DNA from: an uncultured Hyphomicrobiales bacterium
Lineage (GTDB): Bacteria > Pseudomonadota > Alphaproteobacteria > Rhizobiales > Beijerinckiaceae
Length of the DNA: 64,000 nucleotides
Direction of reading: 5' to 3'
Assembly: GCA_903847605.1 (NCBI GenBank)
Contig: CAINED010000021.1
Location: 1 to 64,000, forward strand
This document shows, one piece after another, positions 51,829 through 57,909 of this stretch. The position numbers were made by a program, and so were the translations under genes. The notes under the pieces were generated by a model. The model saw only the letters and a program-made list of their open reading frames with translations, made no database searches and was not told the DNA's origin. Numbering within the stretch: position 1 is the stretch's first letter; each line of letters opens with the position of its first letter.

Positions 51829-54800
51829 TTAATGAAAATTGCGTCCCTTGGGCATGGCGCGCGCAGTTTCGCGGGCGAGAGTAACGGAAGGCGGCAGCTT
51901 ATCGGGCCTTTCAAGCGGCAGCAGCGGGGTCGCGTCGACCTTGATCTTGTCTCGTTCGTTGGGACGCTTGATCTCGTCCGCACGGGCAAGCGCAGAGACC
52001 TCGGCGCCCTGCGAAGACAGCTTGCCGAGCAATGGCGTGAGATCTTCTATCTTTTCCGCGATGACGTGAATGACGCACTGCTCGTTCTGCACGCGGCCCG
52101 TGACGGCGACAAACCGCGCGCCTATGACGACGGGCCGGAACGTCTCGAACACTTTCGGCCAGACGATGACATTCGCCGATCCGCTCTCGTCCTCCAGCGT
52201 CATGAAGATGACGCCCTTCGCCGTGCCCGGCCTCTGCCGCACGATGACAAGGCCGGCGATGGTGAGGCGTGGGGAATAGGTGCGTGATATTGGGTTACCC
52301 TTCTCTCTGGAAGTTTTGTTTTCGTGAGGAACAAGCCTCCCCAAATCCCCGCACTTTACCGCTCTCTTCTTATCGAGATCGCCACGTAAAAAGCTCACGG
52401 GGTGTGCTTTCAACGACAACGACATCTGCCTGTAGTCCTCGACAACATGTTCGCCGAGCGGCATCGGCGGAAGATGGGCGTCGGGCTCGAGTTCGCGCAG
52501 ATTCACATGGCGGAAAAGTTCGAGATCGTCCTTGTCGCCGGAACGATTGAGGCCGCGCACGGCCCAGAGCGCCTCGCGACGATCAAGGCCGATGGAGCGG
52601 AAGGCGTCGGCGACTGCAAGACGTTCGAGCACCGCGGGCGAAAGGCCGGTGCGCAGCCAGAGATCGCGCACGCTGTCGTAGCCGCGCACGCGTTTTTCCA
52701 TGATGCGGCGCATGTCGTCCTCGCGCACGCCCTTCACGATGCGCAAGCCGAGACGGATTCCCCTCCCCGCTTGCGGGGAGGGGTCAGGGGTGGGGGAAGT
52801 CTGCAGTAACGCGACCACAGGCCCCACCCCCTGCCCCTCCCCGCTTTGGCGGGGAGGGGAGATCTCCTCCAGCCCGCAATCCCAATCGGAAAAATTCACA
52901 TCGACTTCGCGTACCTCGACGCCGTGATTGCGCGCGTCGCGCACGATCTGCGCCGGCGCGTAAAAGCCCATGGGCTGCGAATTGATCAGCGCTGCCGCGA
53001 AAATCTCGGGATAAAAGCACTTGAACCATGCGGAGGCATAGACGAGCAGCGCAAACGACGCAGCATGGCTTTCGGGAAAACCGTAGGAGCCGAAACCCTC
53101 GATCTGCTTGAAGCAGCGCGAAGCGAAGTCGCGATCGTAACCGCGCGCGACCATCCCTTCGACCATCTTGTCGTGAAAGGTGTGCAACGTGCCGACGCGC
53201 TTGAATGTCGCCATGGCGCGGCGCAGCTTGTCGGCTTCCGAAGGCGTGAAGCCCGCAGCGACGATGGCGATCTTCATCGCCTGCTCCTGAAACAGCGGCA
53301 CGCCGAGCGTCTTGCCGAGTACGCTTTCCAGTTCCTGTGAGGGATATTCGACGGGCTCGATGCCCTGCCTGCGGCGCAGATAGGGATGCACCATGTCGCC
53401 CTGAATGGGGCCGGGCCGCACGATGGCGACCTCGATGACGAGATCGTAAAACTTGTTGGGCCTGAGGCGCGGCAGCATGGACATCTGCGCGCGGCTTTCG
53501 ATCTGGAAGACGCCGATCGTATCGGCTTTCGAGATCATGTCGTAAACCGGCTTTTCTTCGGCGGGAATCGTCGCCAGCGTCAGCGCGCGTCCGTAATGTT
53601 TTTCCAGAAACTCAAACGAACGGCGCAGACACGAGAGCATGCCGAGCGCGAGAATATCTATCTTGAGAATGCCGAGCGCGTCGAGGTCGTCCTTGTCCCA
53701 TTCGACGGTGGTGCGATTTTCCATCGCGGCGTTGGCAATGGGCACGACTTCGTCAAGCCGCGTATGGGTGATGACGAAACCGCCGGTGTGCTGCGAGAGA
53801 TGGCGTGGAAAACCGGCAATCTCCTGCGCGAGCTTTAACGCCATTGCAAGACGCGGCTCGTGCGGATCGACGCCGACACGCATCGCCTCCTTTTCCTCGA
53901 CGCCTTCGGCATGGCGCCCCCAGACGGCGCGCGACAGCGCATCGAGCGTGTCTTCGCTCACGCCAAACACTTTTCCCATGTCGCGCAGGGACGAACGCGA
54001 ACGATAGGAAATCACTGTCGCCGTGAGACCGGCGCGATCGCGTCCATAGCGGTTGTAGATATATTGCATCACCTCCTCGCGCCGCTCATGCTCGAAATCG
54101 ACGTCGATATCCGGCGGTTCGCGGCGTTCGGCTGAAATGAAACGCTCGAAGAGAAGATCGTGTTTCGTCGGATCGACTTCGGTGATGCCAAGGCAGAAGC
54201 AGATGGAAGAATTCGCTGCAGAGCCCCTGCCCTGACAGAGAATTTTTCTTTCGCGCGCATAGCGCACGATATCGTGCACGGTGAGAAAGTAGGCGGCATA
54301 GCGAAGCTCGGCGACGATGGCGAGTTCGTAGCGGATCGCCTGTATCACCTTGGACGGGACGCCTTGGGGGTAGCGCTGCTTCGCGCCTTCATAGGTAAAA
54401 TGTTCGAGCGCTTCCTGTTCGTTCGCAAAACCCTGACGCAATTCTTCGGGATAATCGTAGCGCAACTGGTCGAGCGAGAAATTGATACCGTTCAGAAAGC
54501 GCATCGTCTCGGCGATGGCCTGCGGGGCCTCGGCGAATAAACGCGCCATTTCCTGCGGTTCCTTGAGATGACGTTCGGCATTGGCTGCGAGAATTTTCTT
54601 TCCGGCCTCTTCGATCGTCGCGCCTTCGCGAATACAGGCCACGGCATCCGCCAGCGGGCGGCGCGATGTCCCGTGCATGATGACATCGTTGACAGCGATC
54701 AGAGGCAGGCGATGCGCATGCGCCAGCGCAATACGGCCCGCAAAATCCTCGCGCGTGTGCATATCGTAGGAAAAGCGCGCGGCGATCCAGACGCGGCCCG

Positions 54801-55344
54801 GCGCGAGAGCGGAGAGTTTCTTGAAAACTCTATCTTCCCCGCAATCCTCATCCTGAGTAGCGCGCGTATCGAAGGATGCGTGCGGGCAACTCCCCCTCTT
54901 CCTTCGAGACGAAGCCTTCGGCTTCTCCTCAGGATGAGGGGGAGCGGTGCATGCCTCCATCACGATGAACTGCAGGCCTTCGTGAAATGGCAGCAAGTCC
55001 TCGAAGAAAAGCGTGCACTCGCCTTTCTTCGCGCGCAGATTGCCTTGCGTGAGCAATCGGCAGAGGCGGCCCCATGCCGCGCGATCCCTGGGATAGGCGA
55101 GAATGTCGGGCGCGCCATCGGCAAAGACGAGACGCGCGCCGCTGATCACCCGCAAGCCTTTACTTGCAGCATCATGCTCGCGCGCAAAAACATGCGCGCG
55201 CACGACGCCTGCAACGGAATTGCGGTCTGCAATGCCGATGCCGGCAAGACCGAGCGCCATCGCCTGCGCCACCATTTCCTCGGGATGCGACGCGCCGCGC
55301 AGGAAAGAGAAATTCGTCGTGCAGGCGAGTTCGGCGTAGGTCAT
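51829..55344 (-). CDS. dnaE2: error-prone DNA polymerase III alpha subunit, DnaE2/ImuC (1171 aa)
   Basis: Polymerase of the ImuA-ImuB-DnaE2 mutasome, for translesion synthesis and SOS mutagenesis. N-terminal PHP domain (FLRGASHPEEMV), the catalytic acidic stretch DIDVDFEHERREEV, GRGSAANS, the finger regions and a C-terminal OB fold. Two stretches are not family sequence but translated palindromic repeats: about residues 136-167 and 827-864. Both are in frame, so the protein is open throughout. The start ATG 55344 lies 15 bases from an intergenic repeat. Confidence 0.95.
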   Translation of the reverse strand: MTYAELACTTNFSFLRGASHPEEMVAQAMALGLAGIGIADRNSVAGVVRAHVFAREHDAASKGLRVISGARLVFADGAPDILAYPRDRAAWGRLCRLLTQGNLRAKKGECTLFFEDLLPFHEGLQFIVMEACTAPPHPEEKPKASSRRKRGSCPHASFDTRATQDEDCGEDRVFKKLSALAPGRVWIAARFSYDMHTREDFAGRIALAHAHRLPLIAVNDVIMHGTSRRPLADAVACIREGATIEEAGKKILAANAERHLKEPQEMARLFAEAPQAIAETMRFLNGINFSLDQLRYDYPEELRQGFANEQEALEHFTYEGAKQRYPQGVPSKVIQAIRYELAIVAELRYAAYFLTVHDIVRYARERKILCQGRGSAANSSICFCLGITEVDPTKHDLLFERFISAERREPPDIDVDFEHERREEVMQYIYNRYGRDRAGLTATVISYRSRSSLRDMGKVFGVSEDTLDALSRAVWGRHAEGVEEKEAMRVGVDPHEPRLAMALKLAQEIAGFPRHLSQHTGGFVITHTRLDEVVPIANAAMENRTTVEWDKDDLDALGILKIDILALGMLSCLRRSFEFLEKHYGRALTLATIPAEEKPVYDMISKADTIGVFQIESRAQMSMLPRLRPNKFYDLVIEVAIVRPGPIQGDMVHPYLRRRQGIEPVEYPSQELESVLGKTLGVPLFQEQAMKIAIVAAGFTPSEADKLRRAMATFKRVGTLHTFHDKMVEGMVARGYDRDFASRCFKQIEGFGSYGFPESHAASFALLVYASAWFKCFYPEIFAAALINSQPMGFYAPAQIVRDARNHGVEVREVDVNFSDWDCGLEEISPPRQSGEGQGVGPVVALLQTSPTPDPSPQAGRGIRLGLRIVKGVREDDMRRIMEKRVRGYDSVRDLWLRTGLSPAVLERLAVADAFRSIGLDRREALWAVRGLNRSGDKDDLELFRHVNLRELEPDAHLPPMPLGEHVVEDYRQMSLSLKAHPVSFLRGDLDKKRAVKCGDLGRLVPHENKTSREKGNPISRTYSPRLTIAGLVIVRQRPGTAKGVIFMTLEDESGSANVIVWPKVFETFRPVVIGARFVAVTGRVQNEQCVIHVIAEKIEDLTPLLGKLSSQGAEVSALARADEIKRPNERDKIKVDATPLLPLERPDKLPPSVTLARETARAMPKGRNFH
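52760..52859. repeat. palindromic repeat inside dnaE2 (two identical hairpins)
   Basis: The hairpin CCCCTCCCCGC/GCGGGGAGGGG occurs twice, at 52760-52783 and 52834-52859, separated by 50 bases with a GGGGTGGGGG-like strand. It is in frame in dnaE2 and encodes an extra Pro/Gly/Arg-rich segment (about residues 827-864) between the SDWDC and RLGLRIVKG segments. Confidence 0.9.
54846..54939. repeat. 94-bp palindromic repeat inside dnaE2 (CCTCATCCTGAG family)
   Basis: Terminal arms CCTCATCCTGAG (54846-54857) and CTCAGGATGAGG (54928-54939) are perfect inverted repeats. The interior includes a second hairpin (GAAGCCTTCGGCTTC). It is in frame in dnaE2 and encodes about residues 136-167 (EEKPKASSRRKRGS...). 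Confidence 0.9.
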
Positions 55345-55359
55345 ACGCCACCACCTTTA

Positions 55360-55456
55360 CCCTCCCCCTTGCGGGGCGGGTCGACGCTGCGAAGCAGCGG
55401 CGGGGTGGGGGGTGCGCGACCCCCACCCCTAACCCCTCCCCACAAGGGGGAGGGGA
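55360..55456. repeat. palindromic repeat in the dnaE2/imuB gap
   Basis: CCTCCCCCTTGCGGGGCGGG at the left and CCCCTCCCCACAAGGGGGAGGGG near the right (55434-55456), with inner GCTGCGAAGCAGC. It belongs to the same CCCTCCCC/GGGGAGGG family as the repeat in dnaE2 at 52760. It occupies most of the 142-bp gap. Confidence 0.88.
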
Positions 55457-55486
55457 ATTTCGCATGCGCTTCTCTTGCAGCATTGT

Positions 55487-56974
55487 TCATCCGAACACCC
55501 CATGCATGAACCAGCGCGGACGTTGCGTTTCGCGCTCGTAGAGGCCCTCGCGATAGAGCCAGAAGCGGCGGCCGTTCGTGTCTTCCACCCGAAAATAATC
55601 GCGCGTCAGCGCATCCTCGTGTCCCTTCCACCATTCCGGCGAGATGCGCTCCGGCCCGTCATAGGCGGCGACTTCATGCATGGCGCGCCGCCAGCGGAAT
55701 CGCAGCGGCGGCCCATCCGGCACGAGCGCCAGCGCTTCGACAGGTTCTGCTTTTTCAAAGAGGCGAATGGGGCGGGTTTCCTTCTCCCCGTGCAACGGGG
55801 AGAAGGTGGCGCGAAGCGCCGGATGAGGGGCAGCGCCCATACTGTAAAGGTCGCGGAGCCCCTCTCCCGGGTTCGAAGTCGGCTGTCGCTGGCTTCGACT
55901 TTGGGAATCAGCACGTCGGGGAGAGGCCGTGCGTCCCTGAACGGGGAGAAGGACATGCTCCGGCACATGCGTGTCGTTCTCGACGAATTGCAGTACGCTA
56001 TGGGCGCCAAATCTTGCGCGCATGCGGTCGAGAAAATCGGCGAGCGCATGAGGATCGCAGGACGGCGCAGCATCGTCCGACATTTTTTCCTGTGCCGGCG
56101 TCAGCTTTTCCGCCTGCATCACCCCGAGACGAATGAGATCGAAGCCATAACCGGCGTCGAGCGGATCGTGTTCGTTCTTCTGCGCGAGCGCCTCGATCTG
56201 CTCGCGGAAAAGGCGCGCGATGACCTTGGCGTCGCGTTGCGGGCGGCTCGTCGCGCATTCGACATGCATGACCTTGCCGTCGACGCGAAACAGCGCCGCC
56301 ATCAACTTGCGCGCGCCTTCGCCATGACGTTCCAGCATGTGCGAGAGATCGCGGGCCAGCGCCGCAACGGTGTCCTCGATATGCTCGCGCGCGACGACGC
56401 CATCGAGAAAGCGGCGTTCGGCGATATAGACGGGCGCTTCGAAACGCGGGGATATCGCGCTTTTCGTGCGGCCCATCATGGCGTCGAGCGTTGCGAACAA
56501 TTCCTTACCGAAGCGCGCGGCGAGCGGGGCGCGCGGGCGCAGCCAGATATCGCCGATGCGTTTCAGCCCGCTTTGCGACAATGCGGTTGCGACGTCCTCC
56601 ACAAGCCGCAACGCCTGAACCGGAAGATTGGACACGGCGCGAAAGATGGCGCGCTCATCCGCGCCTTCCGCAATCATGCGCCGCGCCGGTGCAGCCTCGC
56701 CGAAGCGCGCGAGCGCATTCGCGGCCTCGGGTGTCGGCGCAATTGCGCCGCGCGCGGGAATGTTGCGGCGCGCGAGTTCGCTTTCGACATGCGCAAGCAT
56801 TTCAGCTTCGCCGCCGAAGAGATGGGCGGCGCCGGCGACATCGAGCATCACGCCATCGGGCGCATCCACGGCGGCGAGCGGCGTGAAGCGGCGATGCCAG
56901 TCGGCGATGGCTTCGAGCTTGCGCGGCGCGCCGTCCTCACGCGGCGGCAGATAGATCGAAAGGTAACGCGACAC
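55487..56974 (-). CDS. imuB: ImuB, Y-family polymerase-like mutasome protein (495 aa)
   Basis: Mutasome hub of the Y-family polymerase fold that lacks an active site, bridging DnaE2, the sliding clamp and ImuA. N-terminus MSRYLSIYLPP, GVMLDVAGAAHLFGGE, and the C-terminal RPIRLFEKAEPVEALA, then PLRFRWRR. Between VPEHV and RPIRLFEK lies an insertion of about 57 residues encoded by palindromic repeat (about 341-399). It is in frame. It starts 13 bases after imuA and has 142 bases to dnaE2. Confidence 0.92.
   Translation of the reverse strand: MSRYLSIYLPPREDGAPRKLEAIADWHRRFTPLAAVDAPDGVMLDVAGAAHLFGGEAEMLAHVESELARRNIPARGAIAPTPEAANALARFGEAAPARRMIAEGADERAIFRAVSNLPVQALRLVEDVATALSQSGLKRIGDIWLRPRAPLAARFGKELFATLDAMMGRTKSAISPRFEAPVYIAERRFLDGVVAREHIEDTVAALARDLSHMLERHGEGARKLMAALFRVDGKVMHVECATSRPQRDAKVIARLFREQIEALAQKNEHDPLDAGYGFDLIRLGVMQAEKLTPAQEKMSDDAAPSCDPHALADFLDRMRARFGAHSVLQFVENDTHVPEHVLLPVQGRTASPRRADSQSRSQRQPTSNPGEGLRDLYSMGAAPHPALRATFSPLHGEKETRPIRLFEKAEPVEALALVPDGPPLRFRWRRAMHEVAAYDGPERISPEWWKGHEDALTRDYFRVEDTNGRRFWLYREGLYERETQRPRWFMHGVFG
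55780..55952. repeat. palindromic repeat inside imuB
   Basis: Begins CCTTCTCCCCG-tgcaa-CGGGGAGAAGG (55780-55806), then GCGCGAAGCGCC and GGATGAGGGG. It ends with another CGGGGAGAAGG at 55942-55952. The middle is a diverged version (GGTTCGAAGTCGG..., CTTCGACTTTGGG). It encodes about residues 341-399 of ImuB without breaking the frame. Confidence 0.88.
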
Positions 56975-56987
56975 GGGTAAACGCCTT

Positions 56988-57872
56988 TCACCCTTCTCCC
57001 CGCCTGCGGGGAGAAGGTGCCCCGAAGGGGCGGATGAGGGGCTGCGGAAATCTTTCGAAGTCGGTGCTGCCCCTCACCCCAACCCTCTCCCCGCAAGCAG
57101 GGAGAGGGAGTTCGAAGCCCGCCGCATAGACCGTCTCCGGCTGCAGACCCGGCAGGCTGCCGGGCGCGCCGCGATGGCGAAGGCTCCAGGCGGGCGGACC
57201 GGGCAGCGGACGGGAAAGGCCCACATCGCGCGGGGCGGGCCGCGCGGCGATTTCGAACCGCATCGGCGTCGGCGCGAGAAAAGGCGCGCGCGAAGGCGGA
57301 CGCAGGAGGATGGCATGGCCCCCATGCGTGCGCGCGCAGAGCGCGAGGCGGCGCACGAGGGCGGGCAAATCCTCGCCCGTCAGCGCGGCGGGCTCTGCGA
57401 TGACGGCGGAAAAGACTTTGGCCTTCACTGCCTCTTCCATGGCGCGCCAGAGATCGAGCGGCTGGCGCAGGCGCATCAGCACGAAAGCCTCGAGCGGCAC
57501 GCCATAGGCGGCGAGGCCCGGCCCGTAGGGCAGGCCCTGCTCGAGAATCGCGAAATCATGGGCAATCCAGAGCATTGGCCTGCCTGTCTCGCGCAGATAG
57601 CGGCCGGCCAGCATGAGCGCGAAGCCCGTGGCCGCGCCCATGTCCCCGCCTGCGGCGGGGGCGATTTCGCAGAAGGCGTCGTGGCGGGGGACCGCGAGGG
57701 GAGCGCCCGCGCCTGCCTGCCCGCCGCCCTGCCCCGCCTCAATCCCGGCGATGCGGCTGCGCAGGGCGGAAAGATCAGTCTTTTCAAGGCGCAGGTACGT
57801 CTCCGCAGGGCCCGACGGCCTTGCGGGGGTATAGCCAAAAGATATCGCTTCCGCTCTGCCGGGCTGCGGCAT
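56988..57872 (-). CDS. imuA: ImuA, SOS mutasome RecA-like protein (294 aa)
   Basis: First gene of the SOS mutagenesis cassette. RecA-related fold of the ImuA/SulA family: LSALRSRIAGIE, RPMLWIAHDFAILEQGLPYGPGL, then RLALCARTHGGHAILLR. The last about 40 residues (from ELPLPACGERVGVRG) are encoded by palindromic repeat sequence, so the native C-terminus has been replaced. The stop is 2 bases before the repeat arm. ATG 57872 is 22 bases from a LexA box. Confidence 0.9.
   Translation of the reverse strand: MPQPGRAEAISFGYTPARPSGPAETYLRLEKTDLSALRSRIAGIEAGQGGGQAGAGAPLAVPRHDAFCEIAPAAGGDMGAATGFALMLAGRYLRETGRPMLWIAHDFAILEQGLPYGPGLAAYGVPLEAFVLMRLRQPLDLWRAMEEAVKAKVFSAVIAEPAALTGEDLPALVRRLALCARTHGGHAILLRPPSRAPFLAPTPMRFEIAARPAPRDVGLSRPLPGPPAWSLRHRGAPGSLPGLQPETVYAAGFELPLPACGERVGVRGSTDFERFPQPLIRPFGAPSPRRRGEG
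56992..57108. repeat. palindromic repeat forming the imuA C-terminus
   Basis: CCTTCTCCCCGC-ct-GCGGGGAGAAGG (56992-57017), then CCCCGAAGGGG and, after 65 bases, CCCTCTCCC-cgcaagca-GGGAGAGGG (57083-57108). Same family as the imuB repeat. It is translated as the last about 40 residues of ImuA. Confidence 0.9.
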
Positions 57873-57894: not shown

Positions 57895-57909
57895 GTTCTT
57901 GATTTGTTC
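57895..57909. promoter_or_regulatory. LexA (SOS) box of the imuA-imuB-dnaE2 operon
   Basis: GTTC-TTGATTT-GTTC matches exactly the alphaproteobacterial LexA consensus GTTC-N7-GTTC. It lies 22 bases upstream of the imuA start, within the presumed promoter. DNA damage should therefore induce the operon through RecA-LexA. Confidence 0.88.

Follow-up and report, generated by a model that had tools for sequence, protein, structure and literature searches.

In-frame palindromic repeats in a predicted ImuA-ImuB-DnaE2 mutasome cassette and a few other conserved genes of a Hyphomicrobiales bacterium

Results

We analyzed the predicted imuA-imuB-dnaE2 mutasome cassette of an uncultured Hyphomicrobiales bacterium (Beijerinckiaceae; assembly GCA_903847605.1), which lies in a 64-kb window, the whole stretch of DNA studied here, comprising the first 64 kb of the 220,664-base contig CAINED010000021.1 in a genome of 5.34 Mb. 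All three genes carry palindromic repeats read in frame. The repeats belong to families dispersed through the genome, recur at the same sites in relatives, differ in family between genomes on a resolved tree, and change with little or no third-position bias. We conclude that they are probably non-autonomous palindromic elements that are tolerated in length-variable loops of conserved proteins and are sometimes swapped in place.

The original prediction, made from the letters of the window, had described four repeats in the coding sequence of the cassette and one in the gap between imuB and dnaE2, none of them breaking a gene. All five are present (Table 1), and the coding copies are read through in frame, with the open reading frames (ORFs) open. 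For ImuA, however, the claim of an unbroken gene was wrong: the frame continues through the repeat, yet the protein ends at a TGA on the repeat's edge. The tail KAFTRVALPFDLSAAA is encoded in frame after this TGA, and ImuA of the nearest relative, G012, contains SFTQEAFASAALPFDLFAAA there; since the tail overlaps the start of imuB, its conservation may derive from imuB. Relatives without the same segments are the rule: most of those aligned lack the DnaE2 and ImuB inserts, which are in-frame insertions in conserved genes. The predicted match between insert and repeat borders stood in part. When 103 DnaE2 and 95 ImuB sequences are aligned, the repeat-encoded cores (32 and 24 residues in DnaE2, 29 in ImuB) fall in columns filled by <25% of rows. 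Outside the cores, each stretch shows a loose alignment to variable loops, and the borders therefore coincide only roughly. Alignments with ImuB relatives usually end at about residue 341 and restart at about 392 to 400; Escherichia coli polymerase III alpha (Pol III alpha) aligns with DnaE2 up to residue 817 to 822 and restarts weakly at 864. The ImuB insert is flanked by a conserved stretch (residues 311 to 335) and a C-terminal domain starting RPIRLF, and, if the arrangement described for mycobacteria in passages of PMC11791113 (RecA-NT, linker, and ImuB-C) applies, it would be located in the linker between RecA-NT and ImuB-C. An additional 17-residue low-occupancy stretch at position 980 of the same DnaE2 has no repeat match. 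In the dnaE2 locus of another genome (L034, from G001), near-identical repeat-encoded peptides occupy two separate sites of one DnaE2.

The cassette repeats represent three dispersed families, B (CCTCATCCTGAGG...CTTCGA), U (CTTCTCCCC...GGATGAGGGG), and G (CCCTCCCC...CACCCC). Whole-genome searches gave 18, 25, and 37 matches to three cassette repeats, and a two-round search of 1.16 Mb (the match places, stretches of the rest of the genome, and the window) located repeats at 75 distinct places, five of them in the cassette; because only cassette-seeded families were sought, 75 is a lower bound. Palindromic structure and many-copy dispersal, two features of protein-coding palindromic elements, are thus both present. 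Sixty-four of the 75 places lie outside called genes. Beyond the cassette, 7 of 70 places are flagged in called genes (one in IleRS, two in GlyRS-beta, one near the C terminus of UvrB, one near the start of an ORF with no Pfam match, and one each in a GNAT and a TctC gene); four of the seven are clearly interior, and the GNAT and TctC repeats were judged to fall upstream of the true start. An in-gene rate as high genome-wide as in the cassette, which the original prediction had named as counting against it, was therefore not found.

The elements do not appear to be built stop-free: with the cassette, IleS, and GlyS set aside, 52 copies of at least 75 nt remain, three of which are flagged in genes, and 0.397 of their six frames are open, versus 0.41 in shuffles and 0.412 in other intergenic segments. 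An unbiased palindrome scan served poorly as a discovery tool, returning 30 in-gene hairpins in 1.16 Mb that included three cassette hairpins and missed the IleS and GlyS copies. Rfam hits with E values of up to 0.1 numbered five, each to a microRNA family and far under the gathering score. Copies lie within about 330 bases of the ends of seven contigs of the focal genome (C12, C24, C56, C69, C72, C78, and C91), and the repeats therefore probably break the assembly.

Inserts matching these families recur in relatives, concentrated in a few proteins. In a set of 61 genomes, loci were counted if their insert matches dispersed copies of the focal genome, using a library of 25 U, 23 B, and 19 G copies from which the cassette, IleS, and GlyS copies had been removed. 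Unmatched inserts were excluded from these repeat-derived counts; those of loci L051, L058, and L294 have no or partial match to the focal families. Loci were drawn from the best 30 matches, which disfavors broken hits; 19 of the 49 GlyS loci were added afterwards, partly for long or broken frames; 3 of the 30 IleS loci do not span the site; and one genome contributes two loci to the DnaE2 and ImuB sets. On this basis, library-matching inserts occur in 5/39 DnaE2, 4/41 ImuB, 5/30 IleS, and 10/49 GlyS loci, compared with 1/30 for DnaE1 and 0/30 each for PolA, AddA, and UvrA. Against these pooled controls (1/120), Fisher tests that treat related genomes as independent gave p values of 0.0035 (DnaE2), 0.015 (ImuB), 0.0012 (IleS), and 1.8e-5 (GlyS), with no difference between DnaE2 and IleS plus GlyS (p 0.45). 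The genes ileS and glyS are essential, and the counts for their products versus the controls indicate that neither a repair role nor non-essentiality is needed or sufficient. We set aside inserts of 15 to 22 aa in three UvrA loci and one insert each in DnaE1 (L235) and PolA (L270), none with a repeat match. A DnaE2 loop seen in eight loci, at position 60, is likewise not a repeat.

The occupied sites are themselves recurrent. The IleS loop after IAMDK holds a G-type repeat in the focal genome and G012, a U-type in G006 and G019, a B-type in G010, and an untyped repeat-like insert in G003, with short or no inserts in the remaining covering loci. GlyS has two recurrent sites with different repeats, and UvrB has one, where the sequences differ among the focal genome, G012, G019, and G001 (all but the focal copy typed by eye). 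Unrelated inserts appear again at DnaE2 positions 136, 814 to 820, and 976 to 980 and ImuB positions 297 and 354 in the large alignments; not all of these are repeats, and typing was limited to the matched set. GlyRS-beta (e.g., L176 and L411) is the most often hit protein examined, and several genomes of the genus differ at its two sites. Non-repeat insertions of about 15 to 50 residues also occur at GlyS position 542 to 557 (e.g., L411, L412, L414, L415, and L427), the focal one being AT-rich.

DnaE1 DNA, DnaE1 protein, and AddA protein all place the focal genome outside the pair G012 and G019 with support of 1.000, and DnaE1 DNA is 85% identical between G012 and G019 versus 79% to the focal genome. 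Listed as focal/G012/G019, the families on this tree are B/U/B at GlyS-303, G/G/U in IleS, G/U/G at GlyS-613, G/U/none at DnaE2-820, and B/U-like/U-like in UvrB (G012 and G019 by eye). The focal and G019 B copies at GlyS-303 are 90% identical, compared with 83% and 81% for their best-scoring dispersed matches, and the focal and G012 G copies in IleS are 86% identical, compared with 80% and 82%. The simplest reading is that fixed coding sites would have had one family replaced by another on at least two occasions, at GlyS-303 and in IleS, probably through exchange in place, although loss followed by new insertion is also possible. The patterns at GlyS-613 and DnaE2-820 agree with exchange less strongly. 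Misassembly is unlikely, because both flanks remain within one open gene.

Alternatively, every copy may have inserted independently, with recurrence reflecting a small number of tolerant loops and no in-place exchange, an account we consider possible but doubtful. It fits the location of the sites in length-variable loops and the empty DnaE2-820 site of G019, and at two further sites, GlyS-613 (71% identity, focal to G019) and DnaE2-136 (75%), copies of a shared type resemble dispersed copies at least as much as they resemble one another, which makes independent insertion possible there. At GlyS-303 and in IleS, however, one of the two sisters has a different family in place of a repeat that appears to be orthologous, which would require both a loss and a new hit at the same site. 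It is very unlikely that one ancient insertion per site diverged into the present repeats, the explanation favored for groups 4, 6, and 7 of the Rickettsia palindromic elements (RPE) in the sections of PMC3767692 that we draw on. Although the same sites are occupied in many genomes, the inserts match distinct dispersed families, the best-scoring family showing 72 to 97% identity over 26 to 130 nt, and many relatives have short loops at these sites.

The mutasome cassette is the densest repeat cluster in the genome. Among 55 places hand-merged from the three whole-genome searches, up to 5 fall in 6.05 kb, a count that none of 2,000 uniform simulations reached (three reached 4), and 20 pairs lie within 5 kb versus 2.7 expected (maximum, 9); the queries were cassette copies, a bias favoring the cassette. 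The local excess that the original prediction described is thus supported. By subtraction, 10 of the 20 close pairs lie outside the cassette, indicating that the repeats cluster in general; a second cluster (L179:12525-15080) has copies of B and U surrounding the uvrB end and over the next kilobases. Because repeats also occupy fixed spots in a few other genes, the mutasome is probably a striking example and not a special target.

The suggested specificity for the mutasome or SOS activity did not survive, since the same families occur in ileS and glyS at sites occupied again in relatives. Insertion tied to either, with genes targeted while expressed or acting during DNA damage, could account for five copies in 6 kb, for a repeat in the repair gene uvrB, and for GTTC-N7-GTTC before imuA, which we take to be the alphaproteobacterial LexA-box (SOS-box) pattern. 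We nevertheless regard it as highly improbable: the housekeeping proteins IleS and GlyS carry repeats no less often among the examined loci, the fetched ileS, glyS, and uvrB stretches lack the pattern, the focal uvrA locus has the pattern yet its UvrA has no repeat-matching insert, and none of 30 AddA loci has one. With 37 occurrences in 1.16 Mb of focal sequence, presence or absence of the pattern is weak evidence either way.

Within the inserts, it is the DNA and not the peptide that appears to be preserved. In four shared-family inserts, 34 of 87 changes fall at third positions (one third would be 29), compared with fractions of 0.60 to 0.73 outside the inserts, and selection for the peptides is therefore unsupported. 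That the added peptides are selected and modify mutasome function, one of the options raised in the original prediction, is very unlikely: the inserts are kept in frame, and the conserved C-terminal region flanked by the ImuB sites may by our mapping be the RecA-NT motif, but the scant third-position bias and the different peptides that related genomes hold at one site speak against it. Among 30 library B units fitting a flank pattern, the inner stems have 28 different sequences, pair at 0.98 versus 0.60 for recombined halves, and are perfectly self-complementary in 27 (e.g., L179:12525-12651 and L230:11178-11313), as if B palindromes were regenerated by a hairpin-templated process. The DnaE2 B inserts of the focal genome and G012 likewise have self-complementary but differing inner stems by eye (AAGCCGAAGGCTT and CCGCCAAAGGCGG, respectively).

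Several observations count against tolerated, exchangeable elements. The library derives from the focal genome alone and retains the uvrB copy, one counted DnaE2 locus (L051) depends on a 26-nt match, and the insert rates are not unbiased, given the best-30 lists and the later-chosen GlyS loci. Shared-type copies at two sites lack the expected mutual similarity, as noted above. The ImuB inserts of the focal genome and G012 align at 34% of nucleotides and, with a third-position count of 39/105, were excluded from the codon sum. By a perfect-arm hairpin score, 15 of 31 library-matching inserts rank in the top tenth of same-gene windows, implying that many coding copies are imperfect or were extracted only in part, and the focal DnaE2-136 and ImuB inserts are unremarkable (0.75 and 0.73). 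Matches to Y1_Tnp (PF01797) number one in the focal genome, two in G012, and one, partial, in G019, but none of nine other genomes searched gave a match, although several of them have such inserts; near the Y1_Tnp gene there are only weak 15- to 20-nt repeat matches, and flanking by repeats is not clear.

Gene order is imuA-imuB-dnaE2, with all three ORFs open on the minus strand (Table 1). DnaE2 scores 1384 bits against the NCBIfam error-prone polymerase model NF004225 (cut-off, 939); ImuB, a family of inactive Y-family polymerases, matches Pfam IMS_C and DUF6504, each barely over cut-off; and ImuA matches its NCBIfam model weakly at 37 bits, under the curated cut-off of 150. Gene order, the DnaE2 signature, and the upstream SOS-box pattern together identify a predicted ImuA-ImuB-DnaE2 mutasome cassette, with the ImuA family score below its cut-off. 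The 80 top-scoring named loci from a scan with DnaE2 include Beijerinckiaceae metagenome-assembled genomes (≤79% identity), Methylocapsa, and Methylocella. The N-terminal region of the focal ImuA (window positions 57730 to 57872) has about 24 additional residues (GYTPARPSGPAETYLRLEKTDLSA) that are missing from aligned relatives and by eye resemble none of the repeats. In Rhodoblastus sp. SSC7 (L130:2459-8672), the ImuB and DnaE2 matches share one continuous open frame about 2,070 codons long and may be fused.

Table 1. Cassette genes, repeats, and associated features (window coordinates)
Feature	Position	Strand	Basis
dnaE2, error-prone DNA polymerase, 1171 aa, two repeat-encoded inserts	51829..55344	-	ORF call; NCBIfam NF004225
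G/A-type hairpin repeat in dnaE2, residues ~829-862	52760..52859		Repeat searches; gap in Pol III alpha alignment
B-type repeat in dnaE2, residues ~136-167	54846..54939		Genome search; relative alignment; typing
G-type repeat in imuB/dnaE2 gap, missing in nearest relative G012	55360..55456		Genome search; comparison with G012
imuB, Y-family polymerase, 495 aa, one insert	55487..56974	-	ORF; Pfam; relatives
U-type repeat in imuB, residues ~342-399, flanked by two conserved C-terminal regions	55780..55952		Genome search; relatives; typing
Ancestral ImuA tail, 16 codons + stop, in frame after new stop, overlaps imuB start	56937..56987	-	Translation; comparison with G012
imuA, 294 aa, final ~39 residues repeat-encoded	56988..57872	-	ORF; relatives; weak NCBIfam match
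U-type repeat, imuA 3' end, missing in G012	56992..57108		Genome search; comparison with G012
GTTC-N7-GTTC pattern upstream of imuA	57895..57909	+	Pattern search

Discussion

We propose that the inserts would be copies of short, non-autonomous, mostly intergenic palindromic elements of families B, U, and G, resembling repetitive extragenic palindromic sequences (REPs) or miniature inverted-repeat transposable elements (MITEs). A copy landing in a gene would survive only if it keeps the frame and falls in a loop or linker whose length is already variable, and such permissive sites would recur in DnaE2, ImuB, GlyS, IleS, and UvrB. The peptide would be filler, presumably at the protein surface and harmless to the host protein, while the element would preserve its DNA and not its amino acid sequence; at an occupied site, one repeat could be exchanged for that of another family. 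The density of the cassette would then reflect its permissive linkers together with the general tendency of the repeats to cluster. More tentatively, and at somewhat short of even confidence, a few loops of IleRS, GlyRS-beta, DnaE2, ImuB, and UvrB may be standing docking sites where unrelated palindromes swap via their hairpins, with perfect palindromes regenerated at the DNA level even in coding sequence.

Some mobilizing machinery would presumably act on these elements. The motif GTAG is the end tag of REPs mobilized by REP-associated tyrosine transposases. With copy ends only approximate, 18 of 67 copies have GTAG no more than 20 nt from an end, versus 5.2 expected (U, 8; G, 6; B, 4), and CGTC lies near an end in 15 of 67 versus 26.7 expected.

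In-frame repeats of this kind are already known, having been reported as RPE, as their Wolbachia counterparts (WPE), and as intragenic REPs, including in DnaE2. In the open-access literature, we found no report of a whole mutasome cassette hit, of such in-frame repeats in this host group, or of in-place exchange on a resolved tree, and the apparent novelty lies in these three points: the whole cassette, the free-living group, and the apparent exchange. Our results add a further order, one that is free-living, to the known range of in-frame palindromic repeats (Rickettsiales and scattered REPs), identify a few proteins that are repeatedly hit while comparable proteins are nearly clean, and provide a resolved case resembling repeat swaps at fixed coding sites. 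Whether such inserts are tolerated junk or a source of new protein parts becomes testable by strain comparison and insert removal, and annotators should be cautious, as repeat-derived peptides are not domains.

Several known systems resemble the present one. Enterobacterial RU/ERIC elements and other MITEs, compared here by description, are likewise small mobile repeats fused in frame to ORFs, according to portions of PMC2229807. The WPE-like inserts of Wolbachia, in excerpts of PMC4224334, are in-frame palindromes in repair genes (addA, addB, and priA); in contrast, none of the 30 AddA loci examined here has an insert of ≥15 aa. Intragenic REPs with GTAG/CGTC tags were described in 2013 inside many replication and repair ORFs, among them DnaE2, uvrA, uvrB, recB, and tRNA synthetases, with the recB insertions at the same site and those of other genes at different sites in the parts of PMC3733652 used here. 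Our families share the location inside DnaE2, uvrB, and tRNA synthetase ORFs but have no consistent GTAG or CGTC end tag.

RPE are among the closest known systems, and the parallel that the original prediction drew with them holds for both dispersed palindromes and in-frame read-through. Especially with RPE-4, -6, and -7, the elements share similar size, dispersal, and in-frame position in genes, a likeness of arrangement, although the present host is a GC-rich member of the Hyphomicrobiales. In the relevant sections of PMC3767692, IleRS also contains an RPE, which belongs to a single group in the species with a typed copy, and the likeness to our IleRS copies is at the level of the protein. 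The same sections describe sets of orthologues, among them Pol III alpha, a RecB-family exonuclease, and UvrC, in which different RPE groups occupy the same site, and read these groups mainly as one diverged ancestor. In the genomes compared here, it is matched, dispersed families that differ at one site, which points to exchange rather than to one diverged ancestor.

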